Position numbers and translations under genes: made by a program | The notes under the pieces: generated by a model | Seen by the model: only the letters and a program-made list of their open reading frames with translations | Databases searched by the model: none | Told to the model about the DNA's origin: nothing | Assembly: GCF_007994225.1 (NCBI RefSeq) | Contig: NZ_VLLL01000006.1 | Coordinates: 682,001 to 746,000, forward strand | Length of the DNA: 64,000 nucleotides | Direction: 5' to 3' | Origin: Stackebrandtia albiflava | GTDB taxonomy: Bacteria; Actinomycetota; Actinomycetes; Mycobacteriales; Micromonosporaceae | Shown here: positions 1-52,354 of the stretch, piece by piece | How the letters are laid out: each line of letters opens with the position of its first letter | Position numbering within the stretch: the first letter of the stretch is position 1

Positions 1-2
1 GA

Positions 3-158
3 GCCCGCGCCATCCGGTTCAGCACCCTCACCGCGCTGTGTCGGGAACTCGAATGCCAACCCGGTGAACTGTTGACCGTGGACTTCGGCGAACCGGAGAC
101 CGGGCCGGACCCGGAGGCACCGCGACCCGGTGCCTCCGGTGACCTCCCACCGCCCTAG
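3..158 (+). CDS. Cro/C1-type HTH regulator, C-terminal fragment (YozG-like)
   Basis: The window opens inside a reading frame that ends at the TAG at 156-158. The visible residues include the segments RFSTLTALCRELECQPGEL and LTVDFGEPE, typical of the last helix and tail of the short YozG-like XRE regulators ('L..LC..L.CQPG.LL'), followed by a Pro/Gly-rich tail. It would bind DNA as a small one-domain repressor, but the recognition helix is outside the window and no target can be inferred. The next gene starts 105 nt downstream on the same strand. Confidence 0.7.
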   Translation, partial: ARAIRFSTLTALCRELECQPGELLTVDFGEPETGPDPEAPRPGASGDLPPP

Positions 159-262
159 GCCGGTGATGGGCACGCCCCTCGCCCGTGGACACCGGTGTGA
201 CCCAGGACCGGTGAGACGGGCGGGCCGGGCGTCGTCGCCAGGGCGCCGCATAGCGTCGAGCC

Positions 263-1186
263 GTGCTAGCCGTCGTCACCGCGTTCGCGCCGATCTGGCT
301 CATCGCCGGTTGCGGCTGGTGGAGCCGACGGCGCGGCATCCTTCCCGGCAACGCACCGGCCGTACTCACCGGGTTCGCGTTCCACATCGCGATGCCCGCC
401 GTCCTGTTCACCACCCTCAGTCGTGCCCGGCTCGACGAACTCCCGGTCAGACCGCTACTGGCGGTGGGGATCGGCAGCGTCGTCGTGGGAGCGGTCGGGT
501 ACCTGGCGGCGAGACACCTGTTCCGGCGCGGCCGGACCGGTGGACTCACCGCGGCCATGTGCGCCGGGTACCTGAACTCCGGGAACCTCGGCATCCCGGT
601 GGCGGTGCAGATCCTCGACGACACGCTGCTCATCGCCGCGATCCTGATCTTCCAGACCGTCCTGGTGACGCCGATGTTCCTGCTCGCCATGGACACCGGC
701 AGCGGAGCCGAGGGCGGCCGGTGGCGACTGCTCACCGCGCCGGTGCGGAATCCGATCGTGGTGGCGTCGACCGCGGGCCTGGTGTGCAACGCCACGGGCC
801 TCGTCCCACCCGACGGGGTACTGGCGCCGCTGGAGGTGTTGGGTGCCGCCGCCGTCCCCGCCGCCCTCTTCGCGCTCGGGATGTCGCTGCGCGGCACCGG
901 CGACGGCGAGCCGCCCGGCCACCGCCGGGAGGTGCTGCTGCTCGTCGCCCTCAAATGTGTCGGCCACCCACTGGCGGCCGGCGCCGCGGCGGTACTGCTG
1001 GGAGTCACCGGCGACGACCGGTTCGCGGTCGTACTGCTGGCGGCGCTGCCGACCGCGCAGGTCGTGTTCGTGTACGCCGACCGCTACCGGGAACGGGTGG
1101 CCACGGTCCGCGACACGATAATGGTGTCCAGTGTCCTGGCGATGGTGACGCTCGGCGGGATCGCCGCCCTGCACCTGTCGGCCTGA
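263..1186 (+). CDS. AEC family (auxin efflux carrier-like) transporter
   Basis: A 307-residue integral membrane protein with about ten hydrophobic segments and the overall pattern of bacterial AEC permeases: an N-terminal half with NSGNLGIPVAVQIL, where the conserved Asn-x-Gly-x-x-Gly-x-P stretch breaks a helix, and a second repeat with a similar broken helix near the C-terminus. The family moves small organic anions such as malate or other carboxylates out of or into the cell; the substrate here is not known. It starts at GTG and ends 2 nt before the convergent regulator gene at 1189. Family assignment is secure, substrate is not. Confidence 0.85.
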   Translation: MLAVVTAFAPIWLIAGCGWWSRRRGILPGNAPAVLTGFAFHIAMPAVLFTTLSRARLDELPVRPLLAVGIGSVVVGAVGYLAARHLFRRGRTGGLTAAMCAGYLNSGNLGIPVAVQILDDTLLIAAILIFQTVLVTPMFLLAMDTGSGAEGGRWRLLTAPVRNPIVVASTAGLVCNATGLVPPDGVLAPLEVLGAAAVPAALFALGMSLRGTGDGEPPGHRREVLLLVALKCVGHPLAAGAAAVLLGVTGDDRFAVVLLAALPTAQVVFVYADRYRERVATVRDTIMVSSVLAMVTLGGIAALHLSA

Positions 1187-1188
1187 CG

Positions 1189-2724
1189 TCACATCCGGGC
1201 GTGTTTCTCAAGGAACCGGTAGACCTCGGTCTCGTCGACTCCCGGGAACGAACCGCGCGGCGGCATGGCCGCCAACTGCGACGAGGTCGCCCGGCCGGCG
1301 GGCCAGACCTGTCCCGCCCACGACGCCGCCAGGGCGCGCGGCGGCCGCCGGCAGCAGTCCGGGTCGGGGCAGCGCGACACCGACCGGGCGGTGGTCTCCT
1401 TCCCCCGGAACCACTTCGACGCCTCGTACGGGACCCCGACACTCAGCGAGAACTCGCCGTCCGGTCCGCGCTCGGTGCGGGCGGTGCACCAGTACGTCCC
1501 GGTCGAGGTGTCGGTGTACTGGTTGAACGCGCTGAACTTGTCGGGCACGTCGAACACCTGACGGCTCGTCCAGTACCGGCAGATCGGCTGGCCCTCGATC
1601 GCGCCGGTGGCGTCCTTGGGGAACGCCACCCCGTCGTTCTCGTACGCCTTGACGATGATCCCGGACTTGTGCACCTTCTGGAAGTGCGTCCGGATCCCCA
1701 GGTGATGGGTGGCCAGGTTGGTGAAGCGGTGCGCGGCCGTCTCGTAGGACACCGCGAAGTTGTCCCGCAGGTCCTCCACGGCGATCTCCTTGTCGGCCAT
1801 GGCGCGCCGCAGGAACCGCACGGCGCTGCTCTCCGGCAACAGCAGCGCCGCCGCCAGGTAGTTCGTGGCGACCCGCTGCTCCAGGAACCGCAGGTACGTG
1901 GACGGCACCTCGTGGTCGAGGACGTGGCTGGCGAGGGCCTGCAGCAGGACGGTGCGGGGGTCGTGCGCGCTCGCCTTGTTCTGGGTGAGGTAGATGCGCC
2001 GATTGCGCAGGTCGGTGACCGAACGGGTGGAGTGGGGGAGGTCGTCCACGTGGTGCAACGTGAACCCCAGGTACGAGGCGAGGTCGGAGATGACGTGCTG
2101 CGACAGCGGGCCGCTGCTGTAGTGGACGTGGGCCAACAACTCCTGTGCCCGTTCCTCGTAGTCGCCGAAGTAGTTGTCGCGGTCGCGCATCCGGCGGCGT
2201 AGTTCGGTGTTCGCCCGGCGGGCCTCCTCGGGGGTGGCAGAATGCAAGTTGGCCTGCCGTTCGACCTCCCGATGCAGCCCGACCAGTGCCTCCAGCACAT
2301 CGGTCGGCATACGGGAGGAGGGTTTGACAGCGGGTAGGCCGAGTGCCTGGTACAGGGCGCCCCGTTGGGCGCGTTCCAGCTCTATCTCCAGCGCCACGCG
2401 CCGGTTGGGTGGGTCGGTGCCGAGTAGCTGGTCGGAGCTGACCTCCAGGACGCGGGCGAGCCCGCGCAGCAGTGACAGCTTGGGCTCCCGCTTGCCGTTT
2501 TCGATCATGGAGAGTTGGGAGGGGGCCGTGCCGACTTTCTCGCCCAGCGTGTCCAGGGTCAGGCCGTGTTGTTTACGCAGGTGCCGGATCCGTTTGCCGA
2601 GGCTGATCAGGTCCACGGCGGGGTCGCCGCCCGTCGTTCCGGACGGCTCGGTGGCGCCCCACGGTCCCGGTTCGGCGTGGCCGGGGGCCTCGTCACCGGT
2701 CTGCTTGGCGGAGTCGTTTCGCAT
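1189..2724 (-). CDS. ramB: RamB-type XRE/short-chain fatty acyl regulator of the glyoxylate bypass
   Basis: A 511-residue regulator. Residues about 40-100 form an XRE helix-turn-helix (IRHLRKQHGLTLDTLGEKV, then SQLSMIENGKREPKLSLL). A central ImmA/IrrE-like region follows (VLDHEVPSTYLRFLEQR), then the C-terminal domain with a Cys cluster (CPDPDCC) found in the short-chain fatty acyl regulator family. In corynebacteria and mycobacteria, RamB members repress aceA/aceB and other acetate genes. Here the gene is divergent from aceA with 124 nt between start codons, so control of the two downstream enzymes is the obvious inference. I could not identify a convincing RamB box by eye. The length and domain order are normal for the family. 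Confidence 0.85.
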   Translation of the reverse strand: MRNDSAKQTGDEAPGHAEPGPWGATEPSGTTGGDPAVDLISLGKRIRHLRKQHGLTLDTLGEKVGTAPSQLSMIENGKREPKLSLLRGLARVLEVSSDQLLGTDPPNRRVALEIELERAQRGALYQALGLPAVKPSSRMPTDVLEALVGLHREVERQANLHSATPEEARRANTELRRRMRDRDNYFGDYEERAQELLAHVHYSSGPLSQHVISDLASYLGFTLHHVDDLPHSTRSVTDLRNRRIYLTQNKASAHDPRTVLLQALASHVLDHEVPSTYLRFLEQRVATNYLAAALLLPESSAVRFLRRAMADKEIAVEDLRDNFAVSYETAAHRFTNLATHHLGIRTHFQKVHKSGIIVKAYENDGVAFPKDATGAIEGQPICRYWTSRQVFDVPDKFSAFNQYTDTSTGTYWCTARTERGPDGEFSLSVGVPYEASKWFRGKETTARSVSRCPDPDCCRRPPRALAASWAGQVWPAGRATSSQLAAMPPRGSFPGVDETEVYRFLEKHARM

Positions 2725-2848
2725 TTCTTCATCATGCGTGAAGATCTGCGTTTCTTTCCACTCGATACCGCTACCGAACGCCGCCGAAATGGAAAATTCT
2801 GGTTACCAGGAAGTAGTGCTCGACACAGCGTCACCGTAGGAGGCCAGT

Positions 2849-4138
2849 ATGTCCACGACCGAACCGCGTCCGACCGACCACGACCTCGACTGGGACACGC
2901 CGCGCTGGCGCGACGTCACCCGTGACTACGAGCCCGACGACGTGCGGAGGCTGCGCGGCAGGGTGCAGGAGGAGCACACGCTCGCGCGGCGGGGCGCCGA
3001 ACGGTTGTGGGAACAGCTCACCACCGAGGCCGCGACCGGCGGTTTCACCAACGCGCTCGGTGCCCTCACCGGCAACCAGGCCGTCGCGCAGGTCAGGGCC
3101 GGACTCCGCGCCATCTACCTGTCCGGATGGCAGGTCGCCGCCGACGCCAACCTCGCCGGCCAGACCTACCCCGACCAGTCGCTGTACCCCGCGAACTCGG
3201 TGCCGCAGGTCGTGCGCCGCATCAACAACGCCCTCCTGCGCGCCGACCAGATCGAACACGCCGAGGGCGTCCAGAGCGTCGAGGACTGGCTCGTGCCCAT
3301 CGTCGCCGACGCCGAGGCCGGATTCGGAGGACCGTTGAACGCCTTCGAGCTGATGAAGGCGATGATCGCCGCCGGCGCCGCCGGAGTCCACTGGGAGGAC
3401 CAGCTCGCGTCGGAGAAGAAGTGCGGGCACCTCGGCGGGAAGGTCCTCATCCCGACGTCGCAGCACATCCGCACCCTCAACGCCGCCCGGCTCGCCGCCG
3501 ACGTCGCCGGGACGCCGACGGTGATCGTCGCCCGCACCGACGCGGAGGCCGCCACGCTCCTCACCTCTGACATCGACGAACGCGACGCCCGGTTCCTCAC
3601 CGGGGAACGCAGCCCCGAGGGGTACTTCCACGTCCGCAACGGCCTTGAGGCGTGCATCGCCAGGGCCAGGTCGTACGCGCCCTACGCGGACCTGCTCTGG
3701 ATGGAGACGAGCACACCCGACCTCGACACCGCCCGGGAGTTCGCCGAAGCGGTCAAGGACGAGTACCCCGACCAGATGCTCGCCTACAACTGTTCGCCGT
3801 CGTTCAACTGGCGACGGCACCTCGACGACGACACGATCGCGAAGTTCCAGAACGAGCTCGGCGCGATGGGGTACACGTTCCAGTTCATCACCCTCGCCGG
3901 GTTCCACTCGCTCAACCACTCGATGTTCGACCTGGCCCACGGCTACGCCCGCAACGGCATGACGGCGTACGTGGACCTACAGGAACGCGAATTCGAGGCG
4001 GAGCAGCGCGGTTACACCGCCACCCGCCACCAACGGGACGTGGGGACCGGCTACTTCGACGAGATCGCCAACATCCTCAACCCGTCGGGCTCCACACTGG
4101 CACTGGCGGGCTCCACCGAGACCGGCCAGTTCCACTGA
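2849..4138 (+). CDS. aceA: Isocitrate lyase
   Basis: Cleaves isocitrate to glyoxylate and succinate, the first step of the glyoxylate bypass, in the cytoplasm. The 429-residue protein has the family signature [11 protein letters not shown] near residue 190, whose Cys is the catalytic residue, and the downstream Mg-binding and substrate segments ([28 protein letters not shown]). The length matches the short actinobacterial ICL1 class. A Shine-Dalgarno GGAGG lies a few bases before the ATG. Malate synthase follows after 23 nt on the same strand, so the two bypass enzymes form one operon, with the ramB-like gene divergent upstream. Confidence 0.97.
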
Positions 4139-4161
4139 CGAGGCACCACCAGGAGGCAGCC

Positions 4162-5784
4162 ATGACCACCATCGCCGCGACCCGTCCCACCTGGCAGGTG
4201 ACAGTCACCGGCCCGACCCTGCCCCGGCAGGACGAGCTCCTCACACCCGAGGCGCTGGCCTTCCTCGGCGAACTGCACCACGCGTTCGTCGGCCGACGGC
4301 AGGAACTGCTCCACCGGCGCAAACAGCGTCGCGGCCGGATCGCCGACGGCGCCGATCCGCGTTTCCTCCCCGAGACCGCCGACATCCGGGAGGACGACTC
4401 CTGGCGGGTCGCCCCGCTCGCGCCCGGACTCGAAGACCGGCGCGTCGAGATAACCGGGCCGTGCGACCGCAAGATGACGATCAACGCGCTCAACTCCGGC
4501 GCCAGGTGCTGGCTCGCCGACATGGAGGACTCGTCCACTCCGAGCTGGACCAACGTCGTCAACGGCCAGCTCAATCTCACCGACGCGCTCGACCGGCGGA
4601 TCGACTTCACCTCCGAACAGGGCAAGGAGTACCGGCTCCACGGTGAACACCTCACCGACCTGCCGACCATCATCGTCAGGCCCCGGGGCTGGCACCTCGC
4701 GGAACGGCACCTGCGCGTCGACGGCGTGCCGATCAGCGGCAGCCTGGTCGACTTCGGCCTCTACTTCTTCCACAACGCGCGCCGCCTCATCGACCAGGGC
4801 CGCGGGCCGTACTTCTACCTGCCGAAGCTGGAGTCGCACCTGGAGGCGCGACTGTGGAACGACGTGTTCCTGCTCGCGCAACGGCTCCTGGGCATCCCGC
4901 GCGGCACGATCCGGGCCACGGTCCTGATCGAGACCATCACCGCGGCGTTCGAGATGGAGGAGATCCTCTACGAACTGCGGGAACACAGCGCCGGACTCAA
5001 CGCGGGCCGCTGGGACTACATCTTCTCGGTGATCAAGAACTTCGGGGAACGCGGACCCCGGTTCGTGCTGCCCGACCGTGACAAGGTGACGATGGAGTCG
5101 CCGTTCATGCGCGCCTACACCGAACAGCTCGTCCGGGCGTGTCACCGCCGGGGGGCCTCGGCCATCGGCGGGATGGCGGCGTTCATCCCGAACCGACGCG
5201 ACGAGGCCGTCAACGCCGTCGCGGTCGAGAAGGTCCGCGCCGACAAGACCCGGGAGGCGAACGACGGGTTCGACGGGACGTGGGTCGCCCACCCCGACCT
5301 GGTCCCGATCGCGATGGAGGTGTTCGACGCGGTGCTGGGCGAGCGGCCGAACCAGATCGACCGCCGCCGCGACGACGTCCGGCCCGACGAGGCAGCGCTC
5401 CTGGACATCGCGGCCACCGAAGGCGACATCACCGAGGCGGGCGTCCGCGCCAACATCGAGGTCGGTGTCCGCTACATCGAGTCCTGGTTGCGCGGGATCG
5501 GTGCCGCCGCCATCAACAACCTCATGGAGGACGCCGCCACCGCCGAGATATCGCGTTCGCAGATCTGGCAGTGGATCCGCGCGAACGCGGTGACCGACAC
5601 CGGCCGGGTCGTGACCCGGCAGTGGGTGGCGGACCTGCTCGACGAGGAGTTCTCACGGCTGGAACGGTTCGAGGGTGACCGGTTCGACCAGGCCCGCGAG
5701 ATATTCACCGAGTGCGCCCTCGCGCAGGAGTACCCGACGTTCCTGACCTGCACCGCGTACAGCCGTTACCTGTGTGACGGCTGA
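4162..5784 (+). CDS. aceB: Malate synthase A
   Basis: Condenses glyoxylate with acetyl-CoA to malate, completing the glyoxylate bypass started by aceA. The protein is 540 residues, the usual length of the A-type enzyme rather than the longer GlcB type. It contains the conserved stretches [32 protein letters not shown] and [20 protein letters not shown], where the Arg and the acidic residues bind glyoxylate and Mg. The start is set by GGAGG at 4152-4156, a few bases before ATG. The gene ends in a strong convergent terminator hairpin at 5801-5834. Confidence 0.97.
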
Positions 5785-5800
5785 CCGGCGCCCCACACGC

Positions 5801-5834
5801 GCGAGCGCGCCGAGCCCTTCCGGGTTCGGCGCGC
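5801..5834. terminator. Convergent terminator between aceB and the cysteine peptide gene
   Basis: A 15-bp stem (one G-U pair) with a TTCC loop: left arm 5801-5815, right arm 5820-5834. It lies 16 nt after the aceB stop and 12 nt after the stop of the minus-strand peptide gene, so it can end both transcripts. There is no long T-tract, as is usual in high-GC actinomycetes. Confidence 0.8.
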
Positions 5835-5846
5835 TCGTCGGGTGGT

Positions 5847-6005
5847 TCAGCAGCAGGGCAGCTTCTCGCCGGGCTTGCGGACGCCCCGCGTGGGGATGTA
5901 GACGCCGTAGCCGCCGCAACCGCTGTAGCACTTGACTTCGATGGTCGCGGCCTTGCCGGTGGCCTTGGGCAGGATCGAGGCGGTGAGGCGCTTGGTGAGG
6001 TTCAT
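5847..6005 (-). CDS. Small cysteine-ended peptide A (putative modified/secreted peptide precursor)
   Basis: A 52-residue basic peptide starting MNLTKRLTASILPKATGKAA and ending EKLPCC. Cysteines are at 26, 30, 51 and 52, so the last residue is Cys and the count is even. The first 20-25 residues are not a Sec signal (no long hydrophobic core) but look like a leader with an Ala-Ala before the Cys-containing part. GGGAG precedes the ATG by 5 nt, a consensus-like promoter lies upstream, and a terminator follows 12 nt after the stop, so it is probably transcribed alone. It lies 127 bp downstream of the MauE-TlpA-S26 operon on the same strand. Two related peptides occur at 10601 and 52169. The reading frame, signals and relatives argue that it is real; its function is inference. 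Confidence 0.75.
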   Translation of the reverse strand: MNLTKRLTASILPKATGKAATIEVKCYSGCGGYGVYIPTRGVRKPGEKLPCC

Positions 6006-6056
6006 GTCTTCTCCCGGGTGAGATGTGTCGTAGCGGATGTTTCGGTCCTCCGCGAC

Positions 6057-6086
6057 AGTATGTCGAGCGGATACTTTCGGTGTCAA
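6057..6086 (-). promoter_or_regulatory. Promoter of cysteine peptide A
   Basis: Read on the minus strand, TTGACA (6081-6086) and CATACT (6057-6062) are separated by 18 nt. This is a good housekeeping-type match about 50 nt before the ATG at 6005. It lies inside the 127-bp gap after the S26 gene, so the peptide can be expressed more strongly than the enzymes. Confidence 0.6.
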
Positions 6087-6132
6087 GGCGAAGCCGCAAG
6101 TGAAACCACAATATGCATTCGTGCATGTCGAT

Positions 6133-6573
6133 TCATTGCAGGGCGATCGCGCGCAGGCGGCGAAGGTCCACGAAGCCCTCCTGCCGGGAGTCCACACTGT
6201 GCTCGGGCGAGTCGCCCAACAGGACGCAACGGCCGGCCGGGACGACCTCACCGGCGGGTAGCCGCCCGAGGCCGGCCGGCACCCGGTCACCGGGAAGCGC
6301 CGCGACCCGCTTGACGATCCACAGCCGCCCCTCTCGTTCGTCGGGCGGATTCTCGGGCGCCTCCGCCCACAGTGGAGCCACTGCCACCACGTCACCCACC
6401 CGCAACCTTCCGATGCGGGTACGGCGCATCAGCACCGAGGAACCGTCCACCAACGCCGGTTCCATGCTCCGGCCGTCGATCGTCACGTGGACGTAGCGCC
6501 CCCGCAGGCACATCACCGCCGACGCCACGCCGGCCGTCCCCGCCGTCACGACGGCCCACATCCACCAGGTCAC
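6133..6573 (-). CDS. S26 family signal peptidase-like protein
   Basis: A 146-residue membrane-anchored peptidase of the signal peptidase I clan. An N-terminal hydrophobic helix (about residues 3-23) is followed by the box B motif GRSMEP with the likely nucleophile Ser36. Box D is IVKRVAALPGD with the general base Lys88, and a box E-like segment LLGDSPEHSVDSR follows. The catalytic dyad is intact. It is shorter than housekeeping LepB (about 250 residues), which suggests a dedicated role. The GTG start overlaps the TlpA stop by 4 nt (GTGA), so the two are translationally coupled. Signal peptidases cut after small residues at -3 and -1; peptide genes B and C have such Ala-rich sites just before the first Cys. 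Use of those peptides as substrates is inference from position. Confidence 0.85.
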   Translation of the reverse strand: MTWWMWAVVTAGTAGVASAVMCLRGRYVHVTIDGRSMEPALVDGSSVLMRRTRIGRLRVGDVVAVAPLWAEAPENPPDEREGRLWIVKRVAALPGDRVPAGLGRLPAGEVVPAGRCVLLGDSPEHSVDSRQEGFVDLRRLRAIALQ

Positions 6574-7091
6574 CGGATCTCGGCCTCCCCGTAACCGTGA
6601 CCGACGATCGTCCTTCCCGCACCGATCGTGCAGAACGACGGAGTCGCCTGAACACCGAACGCCCGGGCCACCGGCCCCGACTTCGGCTCCACCACCACCC
6701 GCGCCCCCTTCGACAACGGCGAGACCAGCTCCCCGGCGGTGTCGTGCTCCCGCACCACCGCCAGCGCCTGCCGTTTCCCACCCGGCAGCCGCTCGGCGTT
6801 GGCGACCCAGTCGGGGATGTGGCCACGACAGGTCTCGCACTGCGGATCGAAGAAACCGACCACGGTCTCGGGCATCAGATCGGCGTCGGTCAGCGGTTCG
6901 CCCTCGACGGTGTCGGTGGAGAACGCGTCGATCACGACCCCGATCGGCAGCAGCGGTTGCGGCCGGACCGCGTTCAGGTCGGCCACCGACTGGTCCAGTT
7001 CACGCACCCGCCTGACCAGGACGACCGTCACGAACAGGTTGAACAAGACCAAGACCGTCAACAGGACGCTCAGGGAGGTCAGGAAGATCAT
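6570..7091 (-). CDS. TlpA/MauD-like membrane thioredoxin
   Basis: A 173-residue protein with one N-terminal membrane helix (about residues 3-26) and an extracytoplasmic thioredoxin-like domain. The active site is CETC at residues 85-88 in the context FFDPQCETCRG, and a cis-Pro region (QATPSFC) follows near residue 158. This fits the TlpA/MauD group, which handles thiol-disulfide exchange outside the membrane. In methylamine utilisation operons, MauD together with MauE is needed for the disulfide-rich small subunit of the dehydrogenase. Here the gene overlaps the MauE-like gene by ATGA and the S26 gene by GTGA, but no methylamine dehydrogenase genes are present. Oxidation of the neighbouring cysteine peptide is the inferred job. 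Confidence 0.85.
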   Translation of the reverse strand: MIFLTSLSVLLTVLVLFNLFVTVVLVRRVRELDQSVADLNAVRPQPLLPIGVVIDAFSTDTVEGEPLTDADLMPETVVGFFDPQCETCRGHIPDWVANAERLPGGKRQALAVVREHDTAGELVSPLSKGARVVVEPKSGPVARAFGVQATPSFCTIGAGRTIVGHGYGEAEIR

Positions 7092-7651
7092 CGGAGGGTC
7101 TCCTTCCGTCGGGGGGCCGAGGGGGACACCAACTCGGCGAGATCGTCGAACACCGTCACCAACCCGCCGACGACCAGACCGGCCACGACGGCGACCGCCG
7201 TCACGCCCGGCTCGGTCGTACCGGCACCCGTCATCGCCGCCACCGCGCCCGAGGCGGCCACCAGGATCAGCGCACCGTTGCGCCACACGTGCCGGACGCC
7301 CAACGGGACCGTCGAGTGCCCGAAGCAGCGGCACGGCGTCTGGTTACCGCGACGCACCGACAGCACGATCGCCACGGTGAACCCGAGCAGGAGTCCCGCG
7401 GCGAGCACGAATCCCGCGGAACCGGTCGCGGCGGACGGCACCACCAACAGCAACGGGATGGCCACCTCGGCCGACACCACGGCGAGTGCCACCGGGCGGG
7501 CCGCGACCCGCTCGGGCAGCACACCCATGTCACGGACCGAACGGACGAACCGGGCGAACGACTCGCTCCCGTACGACTTCGTGAACGCCGACACGGCGAA
7601 CACGACGATGAGCGCGCAACGGCACGCCACGTCCAGGTAGATCAACCGCAC
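7088..7651 (-). CDS. MauE/DoxX-like redox-associated membrane protein
   Basis: A 187-residue protein with four or five membrane helices and the family's cysteine signature PCRCFGH (Cys107, Cys109); a second CRC pair lies near the N-terminus (Cys10, Cys12). MauE proteins act with MauD-type thioredoxins in disulfide formation, in the manner of a DsbB/VKOR-like partner, although the mechanism is less well known. The GTG start is preceded by GGAAAGG. It is the first gene of a three-gene operon with 4-nt overlaps, with a consensus-like promoter about 110 nt upstream. Annotation as methylamine-specific would be wrong here because the mau structural genes are absent. Confidence 0.85.
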   Translation of the reverse strand: MRLIYLDVACRCALIVVFAVSAFTKSYGSESFARFVRSVRDMGVLPERVAARPVALAVVSAEVAIPLLLVVPSAATGSAGFVLAAGLLLGFTVAIVLSVRRGNQTPCRCFGHSTVPLGVRHVWRNGALILVAASGAVAAMTGAGTTEPGVTAVAVVAGLVVGGLVTVFDDLAELVSPSAPRRKETLR

Positions 7652-7765
7652 GCCTTTCCGGGTCGGGCATCGGACCCTGAGAGGCCGTCGTCGGTCCCGC
7701 TGTTCTGCCGCGTGACGAACGAGGACCGAAGACGGCCTCCGAGTTCGGGCACGTCACAAGTGGAT

Positions 7766-7794
7766 AGTATTGAAGAACGCCGATGTGCTGTCAA
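7766..7794 (-). promoter_or_regulatory. Promoter of the MauE-TlpA-S26 operon
   Basis: On the minus strand TTGACA (7789-7794) and AATACT (7766-7771) are separated by 17 nt, leaving a leader of about 110 nt before the GTG at 7651. The elements closely resemble those before peptide A. The rest of the 628-bp gap up to 8279 shows no convincing gene; it holds three DnaA-box-like sequences at 8043-8082 that I do not interpret as an origin. Confidence 0.55.
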
Positions 7795-8279
7795 GGCTCG
7801 GGAGGCGCCACGGCGCCACGGCGACACGCCGGCCCCCGGCGGAGCGCACCCACGACCGGTCACCGGGGGTTGGACCGCCGCCAGGGCCGGATCCTCACCG
7901 TCATGAAACATCCCGGCCGGCCCGGTGACGACGGCCGTGACGGTGCCCGCCTGTCGGACGGGTTCCGGCGCGCGGCCCCTCCGGCACCACCACCCGGCGT
8001 CGCGGCCGCCGAACGCACCGATCGGCGGCGGGGCGCCTTGTCGTGTCCACAATCGGCTTTCCACATTCGCCGGTTTTCCACAGGCCGCCGCCGACCGGCT
8101 CGACCACCGGCCCGTCCCACCGTAGGCTCGACGCCATGGGGAGGAGGAGTGGCGGCCCCCGGGCACGACGGGGTCACACACCGGCACCCACCCGGCCCGT
8201 CCCCGCCGCACCGGCGGCCCACTCCCGCGCCTGCCGTAACATCGGGGCGGCTCATCCACCGCCACAGACAGGGGATCAC

Positions 8280-8642
8280 GTGGACTTCTCGTCCGCCGCC
8301 GCCGCTCACCTCATCGCCGTCACCGGCCGCGACCTGCCGGGTCTCCTCAAGACGGTCGACCCCGACGTCACCGTGATCATGCCCGACGGCACGTTGCTGT
8401 CGGGGAAGGACGCGGTGGGGGAGTTCCACGAGGAGTGGTTCTCCGACCCCGACTGGTCGATGGAGGTGACGGAACTGTCCCGCCGGTCCGACGACCACAC
8501 CGGAGTCCTGATCTACGACGTCGAATACCACGATCTCGACCCCGACGGTGAACCGTACGAGTTGTCGTACCTGCTCACCATGGTGTTCCGCCGCACCGGC
8601 GACGAGTGGTTGTTGTTCCACGACCAGAACACGCTGCGCTGA
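8280..8642 (+). CDS. SnoaL-like/NTF2-fold protein
   Basis: A 120-residue single-domain protein of the cystatin-like NTF2 fold, as in SnoaL-like or DUF4440 proteins. It has an N-terminal helix, the segment VTVIMPDGTLLSGKDAVGEF typical of the fold (polar residue then GxxxGxxAV), and a C-terminal sheet ending RRTGDEWLLFHDQNTLR. Such proteins are small enzymes or binding domains with varied roles and the substrate cannot be read from sequence. I chose the GTG at 8280 because earlier codons in the frame are Pro/Ala-rich low-quality sequence. The gene is convergent with the sigma factor gene, 9 nt away. Confidence 0.75.
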   Translation: MDFSSAAAAHLIAVTGRDLPGLLKTVDPDVTVIMPDGTLLSGKDAVGEFHEEWFSDPDWSMEVTELSRRSDDHTGVLIYDVEYHDLDPDGEPYELSYLLTMVFRRTGDEWLLFHDQNTLR

Positions 8643-8651
8643 GCGAAGCGG

Positions 8652-9899
8652 TCAGGACACCTCCGGTGCCACCCGCAGCGCCGCCGCCTTGGCCATCAGG
8701 ACGTCACGCTGCCGGGCGTTCCCGACCAGCCCGGCGGCGGTGACCAGTTCCGAGACCGCCTCCTCGCGGCGACCCAGCCGGGCCAGCAGTTCCCCCCGGA
8801 CACTCGGCAGCAGGTGGGAACCCCGCAGCGCGTCCGACTCCACGAGCCGGTCGACGATGCGCAGCGCCGTCTCCGGTCCCGACGCCATCGACACCGCGAT
8901 GGCGCGGTTCAACTCGACCACGGGATTGGACGTGAGCCGGACCAGCGCCTCGTACAACACCACGATCTGATCCCAGTCGGTGTCCTCGACGGTCGGTGCG
9001 ACGGCGTGACACTGGGCGATCGCGGCCTGCAGCGCGTAGTTGGCGCGGCCCCTGCCCATCGCGTCGGCGCGGGCGAGGGTCGCGACCGCCCGGGTGATCT
9101 GGGTGCGGTCCCAGCGGGTCCGGTCCTGCTCCGACAACAGGACGGGGCTGCCGTCGGCGGAGGTGCGGGTCGCGAACCGGGACGCCTGGAACTCCATGAG
9201 CGCCACGAGTCCGTGCACCTCGGGCTCGCGCGGGGTGAGTCCGGCGATCATCCGGCCCAGTCGCAGCGCCTCGTGTGCCAGGTCGGCGCGTATCAACCGG
9301 TCGCCGCTGGTGGCGGCGTACCCCTCGGTGAAGATGAGGTACACGACGGCGAGCACCGCGTCGAGCCGCTTCCCCCACTCGTCGGGTTCGGGGACCTCGA
9401 AGGGCACCTTGGCGGCGGCGAGCGTCTTCTTCGCCCGCACGATGCGCTGTTGCACCGTCTTCACCGGTACCAGGAACATCCGGGAGATCTCCTCGGTGGT
9501 GAGACCCCCGACGACGCGAAGGGTCAGGGCCACCTGTGCCTCTCTGCCCAACACCGGGTGACAGGCGGTGAAGATCAACCGCAGCACGTCGTCCTCGAAG
9601 ACCTCCGCATCCTCTGTGGACTCGGTGGCCATGTCTCGGGCGATCACCCGGTAACGTTCGTCCAACCGGCCGCGTCGCCGCCACCCGTCGACGGCCCGGC
9701 GTTTCGCGACGGTCGTGAGCCAGGCGCCCGCGTTGCGCGGGACGCCCGACTCCGGCCATTGTGCGAGCGCGTCCGCCACCGCCTCCTGAGCGAGGTCCTC
9801 GGCCGACCCGAGGTCACCGACCATCCGGGCCAGCGTCGCGACGACGCGTGCCCCCTCGATACGCCAGACCGCCTCGACGGTGCGCCGGATGTCGCTCAT
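8652..9899 (-). CDS. ECF sigma factor with C-terminal extension (ECF42-like)
   Basis: A 415-residue RNA polymerase sigma factor. Sigma region 2 is near residues 10-75 (VGDLGSAEDLAQEAVADAL; NAGAWLTTVAKRRAVD), and region 4 is near 120-170 (ALTLRVVGGLTTEEISRMF; TVQQRIVRAKKTL). A long alpha-helical, TPR-like extension follows (AHEALRLGRMIAGL; NPVVELNRAIAVSM), which is characteristic of the ECF42 group. In that group the sigma gene is regularly paired with DGPF/YCII proteins, exactly as here: the DGPF gene lies 19 nt upstream on the same strand. There is no anti-sigma factor gene, and the extension is thought to take over control of activity. Confidence 0.9.
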   Translation of the reverse strand: MSDIRRTVEAVWRIEGARVVATLARMVGDLGSAEDLAQEAVADALAQWPESGVPRNAGAWLTTVAKRRAVDGWRRRGRLDERYRVIARDMATESTEDAEVFEDDVLRLIFTACHPVLGREAQVALTLRVVGGLTTEEISRMFLVPVKTVQQRIVRAKKTLAAAKVPFEVPEPDEWGKRLDAVLAVVYLIFTEGYAATSGDRLIRADLAHEALRLGRMIAGLTPREPEVHGLVALMEFQASRFATRTSADGSPVLLSEQDRTRWDRTQITRAVATLARADAMGRGRANYALQAAIAQCHAVAPTVEDTDWDQIVVLYEALVRLTSNPVVELNRAIAVSMASGPETALRIVDRLVESDALRGSHLLPSVRGELLARLGRREEAVSELVTAAGLVGNARQRDVLMAKAAALRVAPEVS

Positions 9900-9918
9900 G
9901 TGGTGTCCTTCTCTTCCG

Positions 9919-10347
9919 TCAGGAGTTCTTGCGGTCGAGTTCCTCGCGCCAGTCCTGCTCCTTCTTGACGTACTCGTTGTCGCCGAACTGCTCGAAGTCG
10001 GAGTCGTCGTGGACCCGCCGCACCTCCAGCTTGCTACCCGGTCCCAGCGGGCAGCGGCTCGCCCACTCGGCGGCCTCCTCCTTGGTGGAGGTCTGGATGA
10101 TCCAGAAACCGTTGAACAGTTCGTGGGTCTCGCCGTACGGGCCGTCGGTGACGATCGGCTTCTCACCGGAGAAGTCGACGACGAAACCGTCCTCGGCCTC
10201 GGCGAGGCCCTCACCGGCGAGCAGCACACCGGCCTTCATGAGCGACTCGTTGTACGCGCCCATGGCGTTCAGGATCTCCTCGAAGGGGACCTGCTTCGAC
10301 GCCTCCATGGACTCGTCGGTGTCCCGCATGATCAGCATGTACTTCAT
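9919..10347 (-). CDS. DGPF-domain (YCII-related) protein
   Basis: A 142-residue protein of the YCII/DGPF family, starting MKYMLIMRDTDESMEAS and containing the name motif as VTDGPYGETHELFNGFWII. Family members form small ferredoxin-like dimers with an unknown reaction. This gene is directly upstream of the ECF sigma gene (19-nt gap), the standard arrangement in ECF42 loci, where the DGPF gene is the usual target of its sigma factor. The 253-bp gap upstream, to the plus-strand peptide gene at 10601, holds both divergent promoters; I see no other gene in it. Confidence 0.88.
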   Translation of the reverse strand: MKYMLIMRDTDESMEASKQVPFEEILNAMGAYNESLMKAGVLLAGEGLAEAEDGFVVDFSGEKPIVTDGPYGETHELFNGFWIIQTSTKEEAAEWASRCPLGPGSKLEVRRVHDDSDFEQFGDNEYVKKEQDWREELDRKNS

Positions 10348-10600
10348 GGGTCTTGACCTTTCGGTTCGTGGCGCCCCTTCGGTGCCTTCACCCAACCGTC
10401 GAACGGGAGACCGCCGGGATCGACACCGCCGCCGGATTTTCACAGAATTTCTCCGGCCCGTTCGCACCCTAGGCGATATCGGCCGTCCACGCGGGCGAGG
10501 AGCCCCACTCCGGCGCTGCGGCGCGTCCGGGGCTGTGCACGGATTGTGGGCGGATGCGGCAGCGTGGCCGTGCCCGATTCACTCCCCCTGGAGGTTTCAG

Positions 10601-10783
10601 ATGTCACGTCTCACCGCCTGGACCGACGGAATCCTCGACGCGCTGCTGCGGCAGGGTCAGGCCGAGGCCGCCTGTGGCTCCTGGTACTGCGTCTCCTGCT
10701 GGTGCCCCGGCGGCAGTACCGGTTGCCGCGAATGCCGCGTCTGCGACGGCGTGCGCACTTGCAAGGCCGGCTGCAACTGCTGA
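10601..10783 (+). CDS. Cysteine-rich peptide B (ten Cys, C-terminal Cys)
   Basis: A 60-residue peptide. The leader is MSRLTAWTDGILDALLRQGQ followed by AEAA and the first Cys at residue 25. The remaining 35 residues contain ten cysteines (25, 30, 33, 35, 42, 45, 48, 54, 58, 60), and the last residue is Cys. The leader has an Asp and no hydrophobic core, so it is not a normal Sec signal. It aligns without gaps to the leader of the peptide at 52169, sharing Met1, Thr5, Asp9, Leu12, Leu15 and AA-C at 23-25. GGAGG lies 6 nt before the ATG and a strong terminator starts 27 nt after the stop, so this is a complete monocistronic gene. Function is unknown: a disulfide-rich bacteriocin-like peptide, a metal-binding peptide or a RiPP precursor are all possible. 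Confidence 0.75.
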   Translation: MSRLTAWTDGILDALLRQGQAEAACGSWYCVSCWCPGGSTGCRECRVCDGVRTCKAGCNC

Positions 10784-10809
10784 CGCGCCTGCGTCGGCAC
10801 GAGTTCCCG

Positions 10810-10839
10810 ACGCCCCTCCCGACATGTCGTGAGGGGCGT
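10810..10839 (+). terminator. Intrinsic terminator of cysteine peptide B
   Basis: Nine-bp outer stem (10810-10818 with 10831-10839) whose loop is itself a short palindrome around CGACATGTCG, followed by TTTCC. It lies 27 nt after the peptide stop codon. Confidence 0.8.
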
Positions 10840-10945
10840 TTCCGCGGCGGAAGATGAGCCGCGCGCGCCGATCGTGACCGGGCCGCCGTCGTCCGCCACC
10901 GCCCACGGTCGTCGTCGCGGTCGGCGGGACCGCCCGGTCGACGGA

Positions 10946-10977
10946 CGTATCGTCGGCGTATCGGAATTCCGATACGC
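10946..10977 (+). promoter_or_regulatory. Putative VanR operator upstream of vanH
   Basis: Two direct copies of TATCG (10948-10952 and 10959-10963) are spaced by 11 bp, one helical turn, as OmpR-type regulators prefer. The second copy is part of a perfect 22-bp palindrome at 10956-10977 centred on GGAATTCC. The core from TATCG to the second TATCG is repeated almost exactly in front of vanR (15782-15797). It lies 32 bp before the vanH start. Confidence 0.65.
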
Positions 10978-11009
10978 GCCGGCAACGTCGTGTTCTCTTC
11001 ACTGGAGCC

Positions 11010-12041
11010 ATGAGTTCCGATGGAGCAGCACCGACGGCCACCCTTCCCGCCCGACAACGGTCGGCGGCTCCCGCCGCGACCACCGGCTTCGTGATCTACG
11101 GATGCGAACCGGATGAGGACGCCCTGTTCCGAGAGTCGGCGGCTCGCTTCGGAGTGGCGCTCACCGTCACCGAAGCGGCCGTGTGTGAGGACAACGTCGC
11201 ACTGGCCGCCGGGCACCGGTGCGTCAGCATCGGCCATAAGACCCGGGTCACCGATGCCACGCTGCACGCGCTGAGCCGCGCCGGTGTCGAGTACGTGTCC
11301 ACCCGAAGCATCGGATACGACCACCTCGACGTGGCCTATGCCGAGAGCATCGGTCTGCGTGTCGGGAACGTCGCGTACTCGCCCGACAGCGTGGCCGACT
11401 ACACGCTGATGCTGATGATGATGGGGCTGCGTCACGGCAAGGCCACCGTGCGGCGCGGTGACGCCCACGACTATCGACTGCCGCCGACGCGGGGTAGGGA
11501 GTTGCGCGACCTGACAGTCGGAGTGGTCGGGACGGGCCGCATCGGTTCCGCCGTCATCGACCGGCTACGTGCGTTCGGTTGCCGTGTGCTGGCTTGCGAC
11601 ACCCGGGCACGACTGTCCCACGTCGGCTACACGTCGCTGGACCGCCTGCTCCGGCACAGCGACATCGTCACACTCCACACCCCGCTCACCGCCGAGACGC
11701 ACCATCTGCTCAGTGGTGAGCGCATCGCGCGGATGAAGCGGGGCGCCCTCGTCGTCAACACGGGGCGAGGTGCCCTCCTGGACACCGAGGCCCTGGTGGC
11801 CGCCTTGGAGGCCGGGCACCTGGGCGGCGCGGCCCTGGACGTCCTCGAAGGGGAGGAGGGCGTCTTCTACGCCGACTGGCGTGGCCGGCGCCTGCCACAT
11901 GAGGCGTTGGCGCGGCTCCAGGAGATGCCCAATGTGCTCATCAGCCCGCACACCGCCTACTACACCGACCACGCGCTGCGGGACACGGTCGAGAACAGCC
12001 TCGTCAACTGCATGGCCTTCGAGAAGGAGAAGTCGGCATGA
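11010..12041 (+). CDS. vanH: D-lactate dehydrogenase VanH
   Basis: Reduces pyruvate to D-lactate for the altered peptidoglycan precursor ending in D-Ala-D-Lac. The 343-residue protein has the D-2-hydroxyacid dehydrogenase layout: a substrate domain with TRSIGYDHLDVAYAESIG, the NAD-binding motif GVVGTGRIGS near residue 170, the segment VVNTGRGALLDTEALVAAL with the catalytic Arg region, and SPHTAYYTDHAL with the catalytic His. It is the first gene of vanHAX; its stop overlaps the ATG of vanA (ATGA). Gene order and the neighbouring enzymes separate it from housekeeping lactate dehydrogenases. Confidence 0.95.
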   Translation: MSSDGAAPTATLPARQRSAAPAATTGFVIYGCEPDEDALFRESAARFGVALTVTEAAVCEDNVALAAGHRCVSIGHKTRVTDATLHALSRAGVEYVSTRSIGYDHLDVAYAESIGLRVGNVAYSPDSVADYTLMLMMMGLRHGKATVRRGDAHDYRLPPTRGRELRDLTVGVVGTGRIGSAVIDRLRAFGCRVLACDTRARLSHVGYTSLDRLLRHSDIVTLHTPLTAETHHLLSGERIARMKRGALVVNTGRGALLDTEALVAALEAGHLGGAALDVLEGEEGVFYADWRGRRLPHEALARLQEMPNVLISPHTAYYTDHALRDTVENSLVNCMAFEKEKSA

Positions 12042-13078
12042 ACAGAATCGACATCGGTGTCGTCTTCGGCGGTGTCTCCGAAGAACATCACGTCTCGGTC
12101 AAGTCCGCCCGCGAGGTCGCGAGAAACCTCGACACCACGAAGTACCGGCCTTTCTGGATCGCCATCGAGGACGACGGGACCTGGCTGCTGTGCGACTCTC
12201 CCGGCGAGGGCCGAAAGAACGGTCGACGCAGGCCGGTCGTGTTGTCACCGGATCGAGGCGTACACGGACTGATCGTCTTGGAACAGGGACGATACGAGAC
12301 GATCCGTCTCGACGTGGTCCTCCCCGTCCTGCACGGGAAACTCGGCGAGGACGGAGCCATCCAGGGACTGCTGGAACTCTCGGGCATCCCCTATGTCGGC
12401 TGCGACATTCCCAGCTCCGCGATCTGCATGGACAAGGCCCTGGCCTACACCGTCGCCCGGAGTGCGGGGATCGCCACACCGGACTTCCGGATCGTCGAGG
12501 GTGACGAGAAGATCGACCCGGACCGGCTCTCCTATCCCGTCTTCGTGAAGCCGGCCCGATCCGGTTCCTCCTTCGGGGTCGGCAAGGTGGCCGGCGCCGA
12601 CGAGCTGCCGGACGCGTTGGAGACGGCCCGGAGGTACGACACGAAGGTGTTGATCGAGCAGGCGGTGGTCGGCAGGGAGGTCGGCTGCGCGATCCTCGGT
12701 GAACGATACGGCCTGGTCACCGGCGAGGTCGACCACGTCGCCCTCACACACGGCTTCTTCCGGATCCACCAGGAGGACTCACCCGAGACCGGCTCGGAGA
12801 ACTCGGCGTTCATCGTCCCCGCCGACATTCCCGACACGTCTCGCCGACTCGTCCGGGAGACCGCCAAGACCGTCTACCGCGCCTTGGGCTGCAAGGGACT
12901 CGCCCGCGTGGACCTGTTCCTCACCGACGACGGCGGAGTGGTGCTCAACGAGGTCAACACCCTGCCGGGCCTGACCTCCTACAGCCGCTACCCACGCATG
13001 ATGGCCGCGGCGGGAATCCCGATGTCCGACCTGATCGACCGGCTCGTGTCGATGACCCTGCACGGGAAGAAACGATGA
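12038..13078 (+). CDS. vanA: D-alanine--D-lactate ligase VanA
   Basis: ATP-grasp ligase joining D-Ala to D-Lac, so that cell wall precursors no longer bind vancomycin-type antibiotics. The 346-residue protein shows the Ddl-family N-terminus (VVFGGVSEEHHVSVKSA), the serine/lysine loop ARSGSSFGVGKV, and the D-lactate-specific omega-loop region EVDHVALTHGFFRIHQE, where D-Ala-D-Ala ligases carry a different Lys-Tyr motif. The Mg-binding end is VVLNEVNTLPGLTSYSRYP. It overlaps vanH and vanX by 4 nt at each end. The sequence style is the actinomycete VanA group (VanA/VanB/VanM-like); which named subtype cannot be decided by eye. Confidence 0.95.
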   Translation: MNRIDIGVVFGGVSEEHHVSVKSAREVARNLDTTKYRPFWIAIEDDGTWLLCDSPGEGRKNGRRRPVVLSPDRGVHGLIVLEQGRYETIRLDVVLPVLHGKLGEDGAIQGLLELSGIPYVGCDIPSSAICMDKALAYTVARSAGIATPDFRIVEGDEKIDPDRLSYPVFVKPARSGSSFGVGKVAGADELPDALETARRYDTKVLIEQAVVGREVGCAILGERYGLVTGEVDHVALTHGFFRIHQEDSPETGSENSAFIVPADIPDTSRRLVRETAKTVYRALGCKGLARVDLFLTDDGGVVLNEVNTLPGLTSYSRYPRMMAAAGIPMSDLIDRLVSMTLHGKKR

Positions 13079-13704
13079 GAACCGACTTCGTGTTCGTAGA
13101 CGACCTCGTCCCGGGCATCCGCTGGGACGCGAAGTACGCCACCTGGGACAACTTCACCGGCAAACCCGTCGACGGTTATCTCGCCAACCGCATCGTCGGC
13201 ACGAGGGCGCTGTGTGCCGCCCTGACGCGAGCGCGACGGCACGCGGAGTCCCTCGGCTTCGGCCTGCTGCTGTGGGACGGATACCGGCCGCAACGCGCGG
13301 TGGACCACTTCCTGAGGTGGTCGCGGGAGCCCGAGGACGGCCGGACCAAGCAGGACCACTACCCCAACATCGGCCGGGCCGAGATGTTCGAGAAGGGCTA
13401 TGTGGCCTCCAAATCTGGCCACAGTCGCGGTAGCACCGTCGACCTGACGCTCTACCACCTCGACACCGGGGAACTCGCCCGCATGGGCGGTGGCCATGAC
13501 CTCATGGACCCGTTCTCGCATCACGGCGCGGCGGGCATCGCCCCCGCCGAGACCCGGAACCGCCGGCATCTGCGCGTCGTCATGGAGAGGAGCGGGTTCA
13601 TCCGATACGACCAGGAGTGGTGGCACTACACACTGAGGAACGAGCCCTACCCGGACACCTACTTCGACTTCCCCATCACGGCGGCGTGGGAGCAGGCGGC
13701 GTGA
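13075..13704 (+). CDS. vanX: D-Ala-D-Ala dipeptidase VanX
   Basis: Zinc dipeptidase that destroys normal D-Ala-D-Ala, so that only D-Ala-D-Lac enters peptidoglycan. The 209-residue protein has all expected residues: the substrate Arg in WDGYRPQRAVD, the zinc ligands His and Asp in KSGHSRGSTVDLTLYHL, and the catalytic Glu plus third zinc ligand His in QEWWHYTL. It is the last gene of the vanHAX operon, ATGA-coupled to vanA. A 267-bp stretch without a gene separates it from the convergent vanS gene; I see no VanY, VanZ or FemX-type gene there. Confidence 0.95.
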   Translation: MRTDFVFVDDLVPGIRWDAKYATWDNFTGKPVDGYLANRIVGTRALCAALTRARRHAESLGFGLLLWDGYRPQRAVDHFLRWSREPEDGRTKQDHYPNIGRAEMFEKGYVASKSGHSRGSTVDLTLYHLDTGELARMGGGHDLMDPFSHHGAAGIAPAETRNRRHLRVVMERSGFIRYDQEWWHYTLRNEPYPDTYFDFPITAAWEQAA

Positions 13705-13971
13705 CGGGGACGCCGAACCGCGTCGGCCGGATACCTCCGCCCCGATCACCGGACTCGGAACCACGCGGGGCTCGGACATCCGCGCGTTCGAGCCCCGCGG
13801 TCACCTCCTCGACGTGGTGGGGGAGGCCGGCGGGCCGTTCCGGTCGGCGACGCCGGCCGTGACCCGACTGGACCGAGACGACGTCGCCCGACGCTCACCG
13901 ACGCGAGCGCATCGTGGCCCTGTCGCCCGCCGGCGGGCCGCGATGCGGACGGCGCCCCGCCCGCCGCGTCC

Positions 13972-52168: not shown

Positions 52169-52354
52169 ATGCGCATGATCACCAGCCTCGCCGACCGTGT
52201 CCTCCAGCGGCTCGTCGCCGCCGAGTCCGCCGCCGCGGCCTGCACTCCCAGCTCGACCAGGCAGTACAAGAACGAGGGCGGCCAGTGCTTCTACCGCATC
52301 CGGTACGTCCGCTCCGACTGCAGTGTCGACTACAGCGGTTGGTACGAGTGCTGA
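52169..52354 (+). CDS. Cysteine-ended peptide C
   Basis: A 61-residue peptide with leader MRMITSLADRVLQRLVAAES, AAAA, then Cys25; further cysteines are at 40, 51 and 61, the last residue. The leader aligns ungapped with that of the 10601 peptide (Met1, Thr5, Asp9, Leu12, Leu15, Ala21, AA-C at 23-25, with conservative changes between). The mature part is Tyr/Arg-rich (CFYRIRYVRSDC; YSGWYEC). GGGAGAACGAC precedes the ATG, similar to peptide A, and a terminator hairpin begins 14 nt after the stop. It follows the NlpC/P60 gene after 136 bp but has its own signals. Function unknown; a second dispersed member of the family. Confidence 0.75.
   Translation: MRMITSLADRVLQRLVAAESAAAACTPSSTRQYKNEGGQCFYRIRYVRSDCSVDYSGWYEC

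Follow-up and report, generated by a model that had tools for sequence, protein, structure and literature searches.

A cassette for cysteine-containing peptides in Stackebrandtia albiflava and a probable actinomycete system with dispersed leader-bearing precursors

Within a 64,000-nucleotide stretch of the Stackebrandtia albiflava genome (assembly GCF_007994225.1, contig NZ_VLLL01000006.1, positions 682,001 to 746,000; hereafter the window), a cassette encodes a MauE-like membrane protein, a TlpA-like thioredoxin-fold protein, an S26 signal-peptidase-like protease and a small cysteine-containing peptide. We conclude, with a probability of roughly three in four, that this cassette is one branch of a widespread actinomycete system, in which leader–core precursors are turned into small, secreted peptides rich in disulfides. 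Comparative sequence analysis establishes the association of these genes, a shared leader family, even cysteine counts, conserved catalytic residues, precursors unlinked to the enzymes and a co-occurring exporter. The simplest reading of these sequence patterns would be one addressable machine with many substrates, with local enzyme–peptide pairs in other lineages.

The cassette and its neighbouring peptide

All four genes lie on the minus strand. The MauE/DoxX-like gene (7088..7651) starts with GTG at 7651 and encodes 187 residues with the motif PCRCFG (C107-x-C109-F-G). It is followed by the TlpA-like gene (6570..7091; ATG start at 7091; 173 residues with an N-terminal helix, CETC and Pro 151), the S26-like gene (6133..6573; GTG start at 6573; 146 residues with Ser36/Lys88) and, 127 nucleotides beyond the S26 stop, the precursor gene (5847..6005; ATG start at 6005; 52 residues, four cysteines, ending LPCC). 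The enzyme genes overlap by 4 nucleotides at both junctions (ATGA at 7091-7088 and GTGA at 6573-6570). An initial annotation of the window had described three overlapping genes of these kinds and a 52-residue, four-cysteine, CC-ending peptide gene on the same strand, and our coordinates and both junctions agree with that description.

The MauE-like protein belongs to Pfam MauE (PF07291; E=1.1e-24, 87.6 bits against a gathering score of 27). Its AlphaFold2 model is a helical bundle (predicted local distance difference test, pLDDT, 92) with the cysteine pair in an inter-helix loop; the model has no PDB match at E<=1e-3, the highest probability among the matches listed being that of NACHO/TMEM35A (0.98, E=0.44). 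For the TlpA-like protein nothing lies above cut-off in Pfam or NCBIfam, and a Pfam redoxin/AhpC-TSA match was found only in a homologue (L156). Its AlphaFold2 model (pLDDT 94.7) shows a thioredoxin fold preceded by a long N-terminal helix, and it matches thiol-disulfide oxidoreductases of the PDB, including ResA, StoA and SdbA. With an N-terminal anchor helix, thioredoxin fold, CxxC and a proline before the last strands, the protein belongs with TlpA/ResA. The S26-like protein matches Peptidase_S26 (E=5.2e-16) and TIGR02227 (E=2.3e-15) and has an N-terminal hydrophobic segment by eye. In length-filtered sets of 44, 60 and 39 rows (window included; drawn from 64, 81 and 75 phmmer hits for MauE, TlpA and S26), Cys107, Cys109 and Gly111 of MauE are kept in 44/44 sequences, C85/C88 of TlpA in 60/60 and P151 in 59/60, and Ser36 and Lys88 of S26 in 39/39, the last placing the protein in Peptidase S26.

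We considered the cassette as a mau methylamine system and rejected this assignment. The TlpA-like protein has no NCBIfam MauD match at E<=1, and no mau enzyme was recognised by eye among the open reading frames (ORFs) of window positions 1-14000, the only part of the genome screened for such enzymes, in line with the initial annotation's report of no methylamine genes.

The window peptide, MNLTKRLTASILPKATGKAATIEVKCYSGCGGYGVYIPTRGVRKPGEKLPCC, consists of a leader to about residue 19-20 (LPKATGKAA) and a four-cysteine core of the type GCG...CC. Another genome of the genus (G001) encodes MauE, TlpA, S26 and a homologous peptide, MKAFDKLVQKVLPKAQGKATRVSGHCAPGCGSGVWVSNAQSSDGSVKALCC, in identical order, and six genomes were found with this peptide type beside MauE and TlpA. 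An alignment of GCG...CC peptides from five genomes leaves M1, P13, A15, A19, C26, G29, C30, G34, C51 and C52 invariant. In a 68-row tree, the TlpAs of the window, G001, G040, G081 and G088 form one clade (100/100 support), and each adjoins a peptide of this type, that of G040 reading GCP. A profile of five such peptides matched 38 of 354 genomes of the family at E<=0.01. Five matches were below 1e-10: four already known and one new (G515), which lies beside MauE, TlpA and an ATP-binding cassette (ABC) gene; two weaker matches that were read (G559, G023) are both precursors of another type. A search with the window peptide alone at E<=10 gave matches in 40 of 61 genomes, two of which were followed: that in G001 is real and that in G002 is not a small gene. 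On this sequence evidence, the MauE-TlpA-S26-peptide association is more than chance, and within the wider actinomycete system the window cassette forms a branch devoted to GCG...CC peptides.

A precursor family with even cysteine counts

The wider system was sampled as the best 80 of 123 relatives, fetched with an alignment (A1) of 20 TlpA-like proteins; a related-locus search with the MauE protein alone returned nothing. These 80 loci come from Streptomyces, Nonomuraea, Micromonospora, Catellatospora, Amycolatopsis, Lentzea, Actinoplanes and other genera. With cross-validated profiles, each half of the loci being searched by a profile built from the opposite half, we found a precursor within 4 kb of TlpA in 73/80 loci. 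By distance from TlpA there are 80 profile matches at 0-4 kb, five at 4-6 kb and none farther (up to 8 kb), and the cassette strand carries 73 of the 80 within 4 kb. A regular expression recovered 71 precursors in 64/80 loci, one row (L068 -3363) being left out as an artefact.

Neighbour-gene profiles, built from part of the same 80 loci, place an ABC exporter within 6 kb of TlpA in 75/80 loci, S26 in 75/80, MauE in 63/80 and all four genes together in 59/80. The three-enzyme content given in the initial annotation is accurate for the window; the usual further partner, the ABC exporter, is missing from the window cassette. In PLSDB, 28 plasmid records match a Streptomyces TlpA of cassette type. 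The two plasmids opened, Streptomyces clavuligerus pSCL4 (NZ_CP016560.1) and a plasmid of Streptomyces sp. NBC_00376, carry the gene set with the precursors annotated as hypothetical proteins. S. clavuligerus, whose precursors include BB341_RS28005 and BB341_RS33815, is a non-pathogenic carrier.

The precursors share the leader consensus M...[LIF][AG]DR.L.RLVP...A.A, followed by a variable, cysteine-rich core. The anchor P...[AVG].A is matched by 117 of the 133 precursors, and in these the leader has D-8 in 69%, R-7 in 68%, L-5 in 79%, V-1 in 72% and A+4 in 97%; the anchor itself dictates the P and the A at +6 and, in part, that at +4. Found without the anchor, a strict A.A stands at the leader end in 28/30 precursors of the window genome, the window peptide being one exception; type I signal peptidases follow an A-x-A rule. 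With a conserved leader, a variable core and enzymes nearby or in trans, the family has by its sequences the attributes of a ribosomally synthesised and post-translationally modified peptide (RiPP). Searches with 52 members found no known precursor family in NCBIfam or Pfam and no match in PDB; stray matches comprise one to cinnamycin (E=0.0096) and seven Pfam families, each hit by a single member at E>=0.02, including a duramycin family.

Cysteine counts are even in 128/133 precursors, in 88/92 after dereplication on the core and in 30/30 precursors of the window genome, as expected with full disulfide pairing. A minimum of four cysteines moves the default share of even counts away from 50%, so precursors were compared with control ORF tails containing at least four cysteines, which divide into 311 even and 134 odd (Fisher p=1e-8, with the last 42 residues counted in a control that was not dereplicated, against whole precursors). 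The initial annotation had proposed to look for small ORFs that end in cysteine; 79/133 precursors do, so this holds for many of them without being a rule, and CC ends only 17/133.

An even count would also suit metal-binding pairs, and the peptides could bind copper or zinc, for example, and not be disulfide-bonded, the redox pair serving as their guard. The presence of CxxC in 75/133 cores and of histidine in 59/133 fits this explanation and tells against disulfides. Cysteine spacing, however, varies widely between cores, histidine makes up just 1.3% of core residues, and an extracytoplasmic thiol-oxidase pair with an exporter would seem to fit disulfides better, so we regard metal binding as the least probable of the explanations weighed here.

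Very unlikely, too, is that the cysteines are modified otherwise, into lanthionine rings or by MNIO (bufferin-type) chemistry, with MauE and TlpA keeping thiols reduced. DoxX genes do accompany MNIO bufferin clusters (PMC12452194), and LanC-like genes occur in 5/6 genomes tested. MNIO is nevertheless absent from all six, which separates the cassette from bufferin systems, and lanthionines offer no reason for even cysteine counts. G001 has the cassette and peptide without a LanC-like match in its genome, which argues against a lanthipeptide, and the LanC-like genes of the other five lie elsewhere.

Two further observations concern the cores. Some resemble TSP1 by eye, a resemblance we set aside as six peptides tested had no Pfam support for it. 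A core sub-family is expanded in the window genome (L204, L205, L213, L221, L222, L225), reading by eye GCPTE.[WY]..RC..G...R.CT...NCT.SCG.W, aromatic and basic; L204, the one member tested, has no Pfam match.

Dispersed precursors and a candidate trans-acting machine

Precursors and TlpA co-occur across genomes. The precursor profile used here (A2) comprises 52 peptides, with rows from at least 8 of 151 relatives (G000, G001, G006, G020, G024, G040, G081, G121); the window peptide matches it at E=1.1e-5, a partly circular value as this peptide is one of the 52 rows. Among the 151 relatives (at most 41 precursor candidates scored per genome), TlpA is present in 54 and a precursor in 45, each at E<=1e-3: 45 genomes have both, none the precursor only, nine TlpA only and 97 neither (Fisher p=8e-30, or 5e-26 without the eight genomes known to have fed A2; the genomes and sequences compared are related, not independent). 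G004, of the same genus as the window genome, lacks TlpA, precursor matches and the exporter orthologue alike. In a draw of 296 genomes across the phylum (20 candidates per genome), the precursor profile matched two, G000 and one weak place in G294. The TlpA profile is unspecific there at 1e-8 (53/296 genomes), with only G000 and G173 below 1e-20. A co-occurrence of this kind, which the initial annotation proposed to look for in actinomycetes, is seen both in the 73/80 loci and in the 45/45 precursor-positive relatives that have TlpA.

Many precursors lie far from any cassette. In the window genome A2 matches 36 places at E<=1, and the best 30 (E<=0.016) were read. All 30 have a plausible start, a leader and an even-cysteine core, and they show codon bias (GC content 0.78-0.98 at third codon positions vs 0.46-0.70 at second positions). 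They are spread over eight contigs, 28/30 more than 14 kb from either cassette and a few beside another precursor, and their median paralogue identity is 0.38 over the first 24 residues and 0.29 over the remainder. No shared promoter motif was seen upstream of the 30 and, within 1.5 kb, no shared neighbour family beyond some groups of two or three members, so that no immunity gene was found.

At E<=0.02, A2 matches 59 places in G010, 35 in G029, 18 in G003, 10 in G002 and none in G004. Thirty of these 122 matches were read, 29 of them validly (row L247, at a contig edge, was left out), and 28/29 have even cysteine counts. The 59 matches of G010, the most seen, occur in a 7.2-Mb genome with only two TlpA matches; eight of them were read. 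In G003 (one contig) and G002, MauE-TlpA-ABC-S26 stands without a precursor in the 10.5 kb read, with the 18 and 10 matches elsewhere. A cassette without a nearby cysteine peptide, which the initial annotation named as evidence against its proposal, does therefore occur, but in genomes that hold precursors at other places. Since these cassettes have no neighbouring precursor and the precursors lie elsewhere, the machinery probably works in trans.

The cassette might instead act solely on its neighbour peptide, the unlinked precursors being relics or matured by general Sec/Dsb-type enzymes. Precursor and cassette are indeed neighbours at most of the 80 loci, and the window-type cassettes, which have a peptide type of their own, group in one clade. 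Yet precursor matches number 0/97 in genomes without TlpA, the only TlpA found in G003 and in G002 has no neighbour precursor, and no Sec-like signal is seen by eye on the precursors. The start codons, codon bias and even cysteines kept by the 30 window-genome precursors argue against relics. We consider this explanation unlikely.

The exporter missing from the window cassette is encoded elsewhere in the genome. A second locus, on contig C5, is complete, reading peptide (eight cysteines)-MauE-TlpA-ABC-S26. Orthologues of its exporter are 74-80% identical in G001-G003 and 65-68% in G010 and G029, and G004 has only a 35% relative. Among GCG...CC loci, an ABC gene is at the locus in G081, G088 and G515 and not in the window, G001 and G040; these last three genomes encode the exporter or a relative at another place, with 100, 74 and 51% identity to that of C5. 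In G001 the ABC-S26 pair is on a different contig from MauE-TlpA-S26-peptide, and G001, G010 and G029 each have an exporter accompanied by S26, the 12 kb read there containing neither TlpA nor MauE. Three exporters tested have no C39 domain. PADLOC matches of the exporter look like generic ATPase matches and were discarded.

From this gene content we infer the reaction directions, the export route, the product and its biological role. The leader would be the shared handle for the machine and the even-cysteine core the variable part. A precursor would cross the membrane through an ABC exporter that recognises the leader and itself lacks a protease domain; once outside, its core cysteines would be oxidised by the TlpA-like protein, which the MauE-like membrane protein, a candidate thiol oxidase, would re-oxidise in turn. 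The S26 protease would then cut off the leader after the A.A motif (G-K-A in the window peptide). Precursors encoded elsewhere would be served by the same machine, giving a library of tens of peptides, and the window copy would rely on the exporter encoded at the C5 locus. The product most likely acts outside the cell, as a weapon in competition or in signalling. Adjacency, co-occurrence, even cysteine counts, the A.A site and the catalytic residues all support the initial annotation's suggestion that the enzymes oxidise and trim small cysteine peptides.

Several observations weigh against this scheme. Among the 54 TlpA-positive genomes, nine have no precursor match, and MauE was not found near 17/80 TlpAs. 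In G077 and G096 (L262, L263), MauE and TlpA are fused in one frame of about 560-600 residues beside an ABC gene, with S26 and precursor not found in the 11 kb read, and near the TlpA of G062 neither MauE, S26, ABC nor precursor was found within 10.5 kb. G173 has a precursor yet was missed by the profile search of 296 genomes, a sign of limited sensitivity. G100 has 17 TlpA-like matches and at least 21 precursor matches in a 14-Mb genome of 10% contamination, which may point to numerous local cassettes and not to a single one. For cassettes with a precursor alongside, which is the case at most of the 80 loci and for one TlpA of G010, acting locally is just as likely as acting in trans. The window peptide carries G-K-A where A-x-A is usual, and service of this peptide by the C5 exporter is something we only infer. 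TlpA/ResA relatives can reduce as well as oxidise.

Somewhat less firmly than the branch assignment, we favour a new class of secreted bacterial peptides built on a dispersed variable library of disulfide-rich members (about 30 members here, 59 profile matches in one relative), one leader and a machine for export, oxidation and cleavage that acts in trans, an analogue of venom-like libraries. If true, this would be a leader-addressed, trans-acting bacterial route to disulfide-rich miniproteins, for which the natural cores already available number well over a hundred, and would give a function to a MauE/TlpA/S26/ABC gene set annotated by domain only. Cluster-based genome mining would miss many such precursors because of their small size and frequent lack of linkage; with the leader rule they can be searched for.

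Relation to described systems and neighbouring features

Prochlorosins share the logic of one machine (ProcM) and many unlinked precursors that combine a conserved leader with a hypervariable core. Their chemistry is thioether formation by a lanthipeptide synthetase, with a C39 exporter-protease, whereas the system here probably forms disulfides and uses S26 and a C39-less ABC exporter. Sublancin-type bacteriocins resemble the system here in having dedicated extracytoplasmic oxidases, the Bdb thiol oxidoreductases, for a disulfide peptide; they differ in having a glycosyltransferase, a C39 exporter and an unrelated leader.

The initial annotation knew of no described system with this content. 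We found none either, and the cassette system is apparently undescribed; a prediction of MauE/MauD cysteine-rich RiPP clusters had, however, been made in 2020 (decRiPPter; PMC7794033), and priority for predicting MauE-containing clusters of this kind stands with that work. The decRiPPter study lists three candidate RiPP families of Streptomyces that contain mauE, in one case together with mauD, and precursors of at least eight cysteines, and proposes that the MauE/MauD homologues modify RiPP precursors (PMC7794033). To pass its strict filter, a precursor needed genes for a transporter, a peptidase and a regulator within the same cluster (PMC7794033). The likeness lies in MauE, once with MauD, beside a predicted cysteine-rich precursor; the leader family, S26, the even-cysteine rule, the four-cysteine type and unlinked precursors are not named in the section on these families (PMC7794033). 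Open-licence PMC papers, a set that leaves out subscription papers, supplements and most preprints, yielded no account of such a leader, of the S26/ABC set, of an even-cysteine rule or of unlinked libraries.

The mau cluster shares a MauE-family membrane protein and a thioredoxin-like protein, with disulfides in a secreted small protein (described in part in PMC7794033), and differs in that here no mau enzymes are seen alongside, the substrates are leader peptides and an ABC exporter and S26 are added. Bufferin systems (MNIO, DUF2063 and DoxX) share a DoxX-family partner and cysteine-containing precursors, some unlinked from the enzyme, and differ by signal peptides and the MNIO enzyme (PMC12452194), the latter absent from the six genomes tested here.

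In the window, sigma-70-like promoters are predicted upstream of the MauE-TlpA-S26 operon (7766..7794, minus strand, TTGACA-17-AATACT) and of the peptide gene (6057..6086, minus strand, TTGACA-18-CATACT). Both are consensus matches only (two observed against 0.1 expected in shuffled sequence). Given its own predicted promoter, the peptide gene is probably a separate transcription unit. No T-tailed terminator was found at the peptide gene, a GC-rich inverted repeat lies near it at about 5805-5838 by eye only, and Rfam has no RNA family at gathering threshold in 5500-8300.

A second precursor of the same family lies about 45 kb away (52169..52354, plus strand, 61 residues, four cysteines), a stand-alone gene that matches A2 at E=6.4e-5 and is not one of its rows; the gene before it looks NlpC/P60-like by eye. 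Isocitrate lyase and malate synthase genes adjoin the cassette on one side and are not part of it. At 11010-13704 on the plus strand, vanH-like, D-Ala-D-Lac ligase and VanX genes stand in a row, a glycopeptide-resistance-type trio unrelated to the cassette; in NCBIfam the ligase and VanX are above cut-off, and vanH_gen matches at 1e-144 yet below its cut-off.

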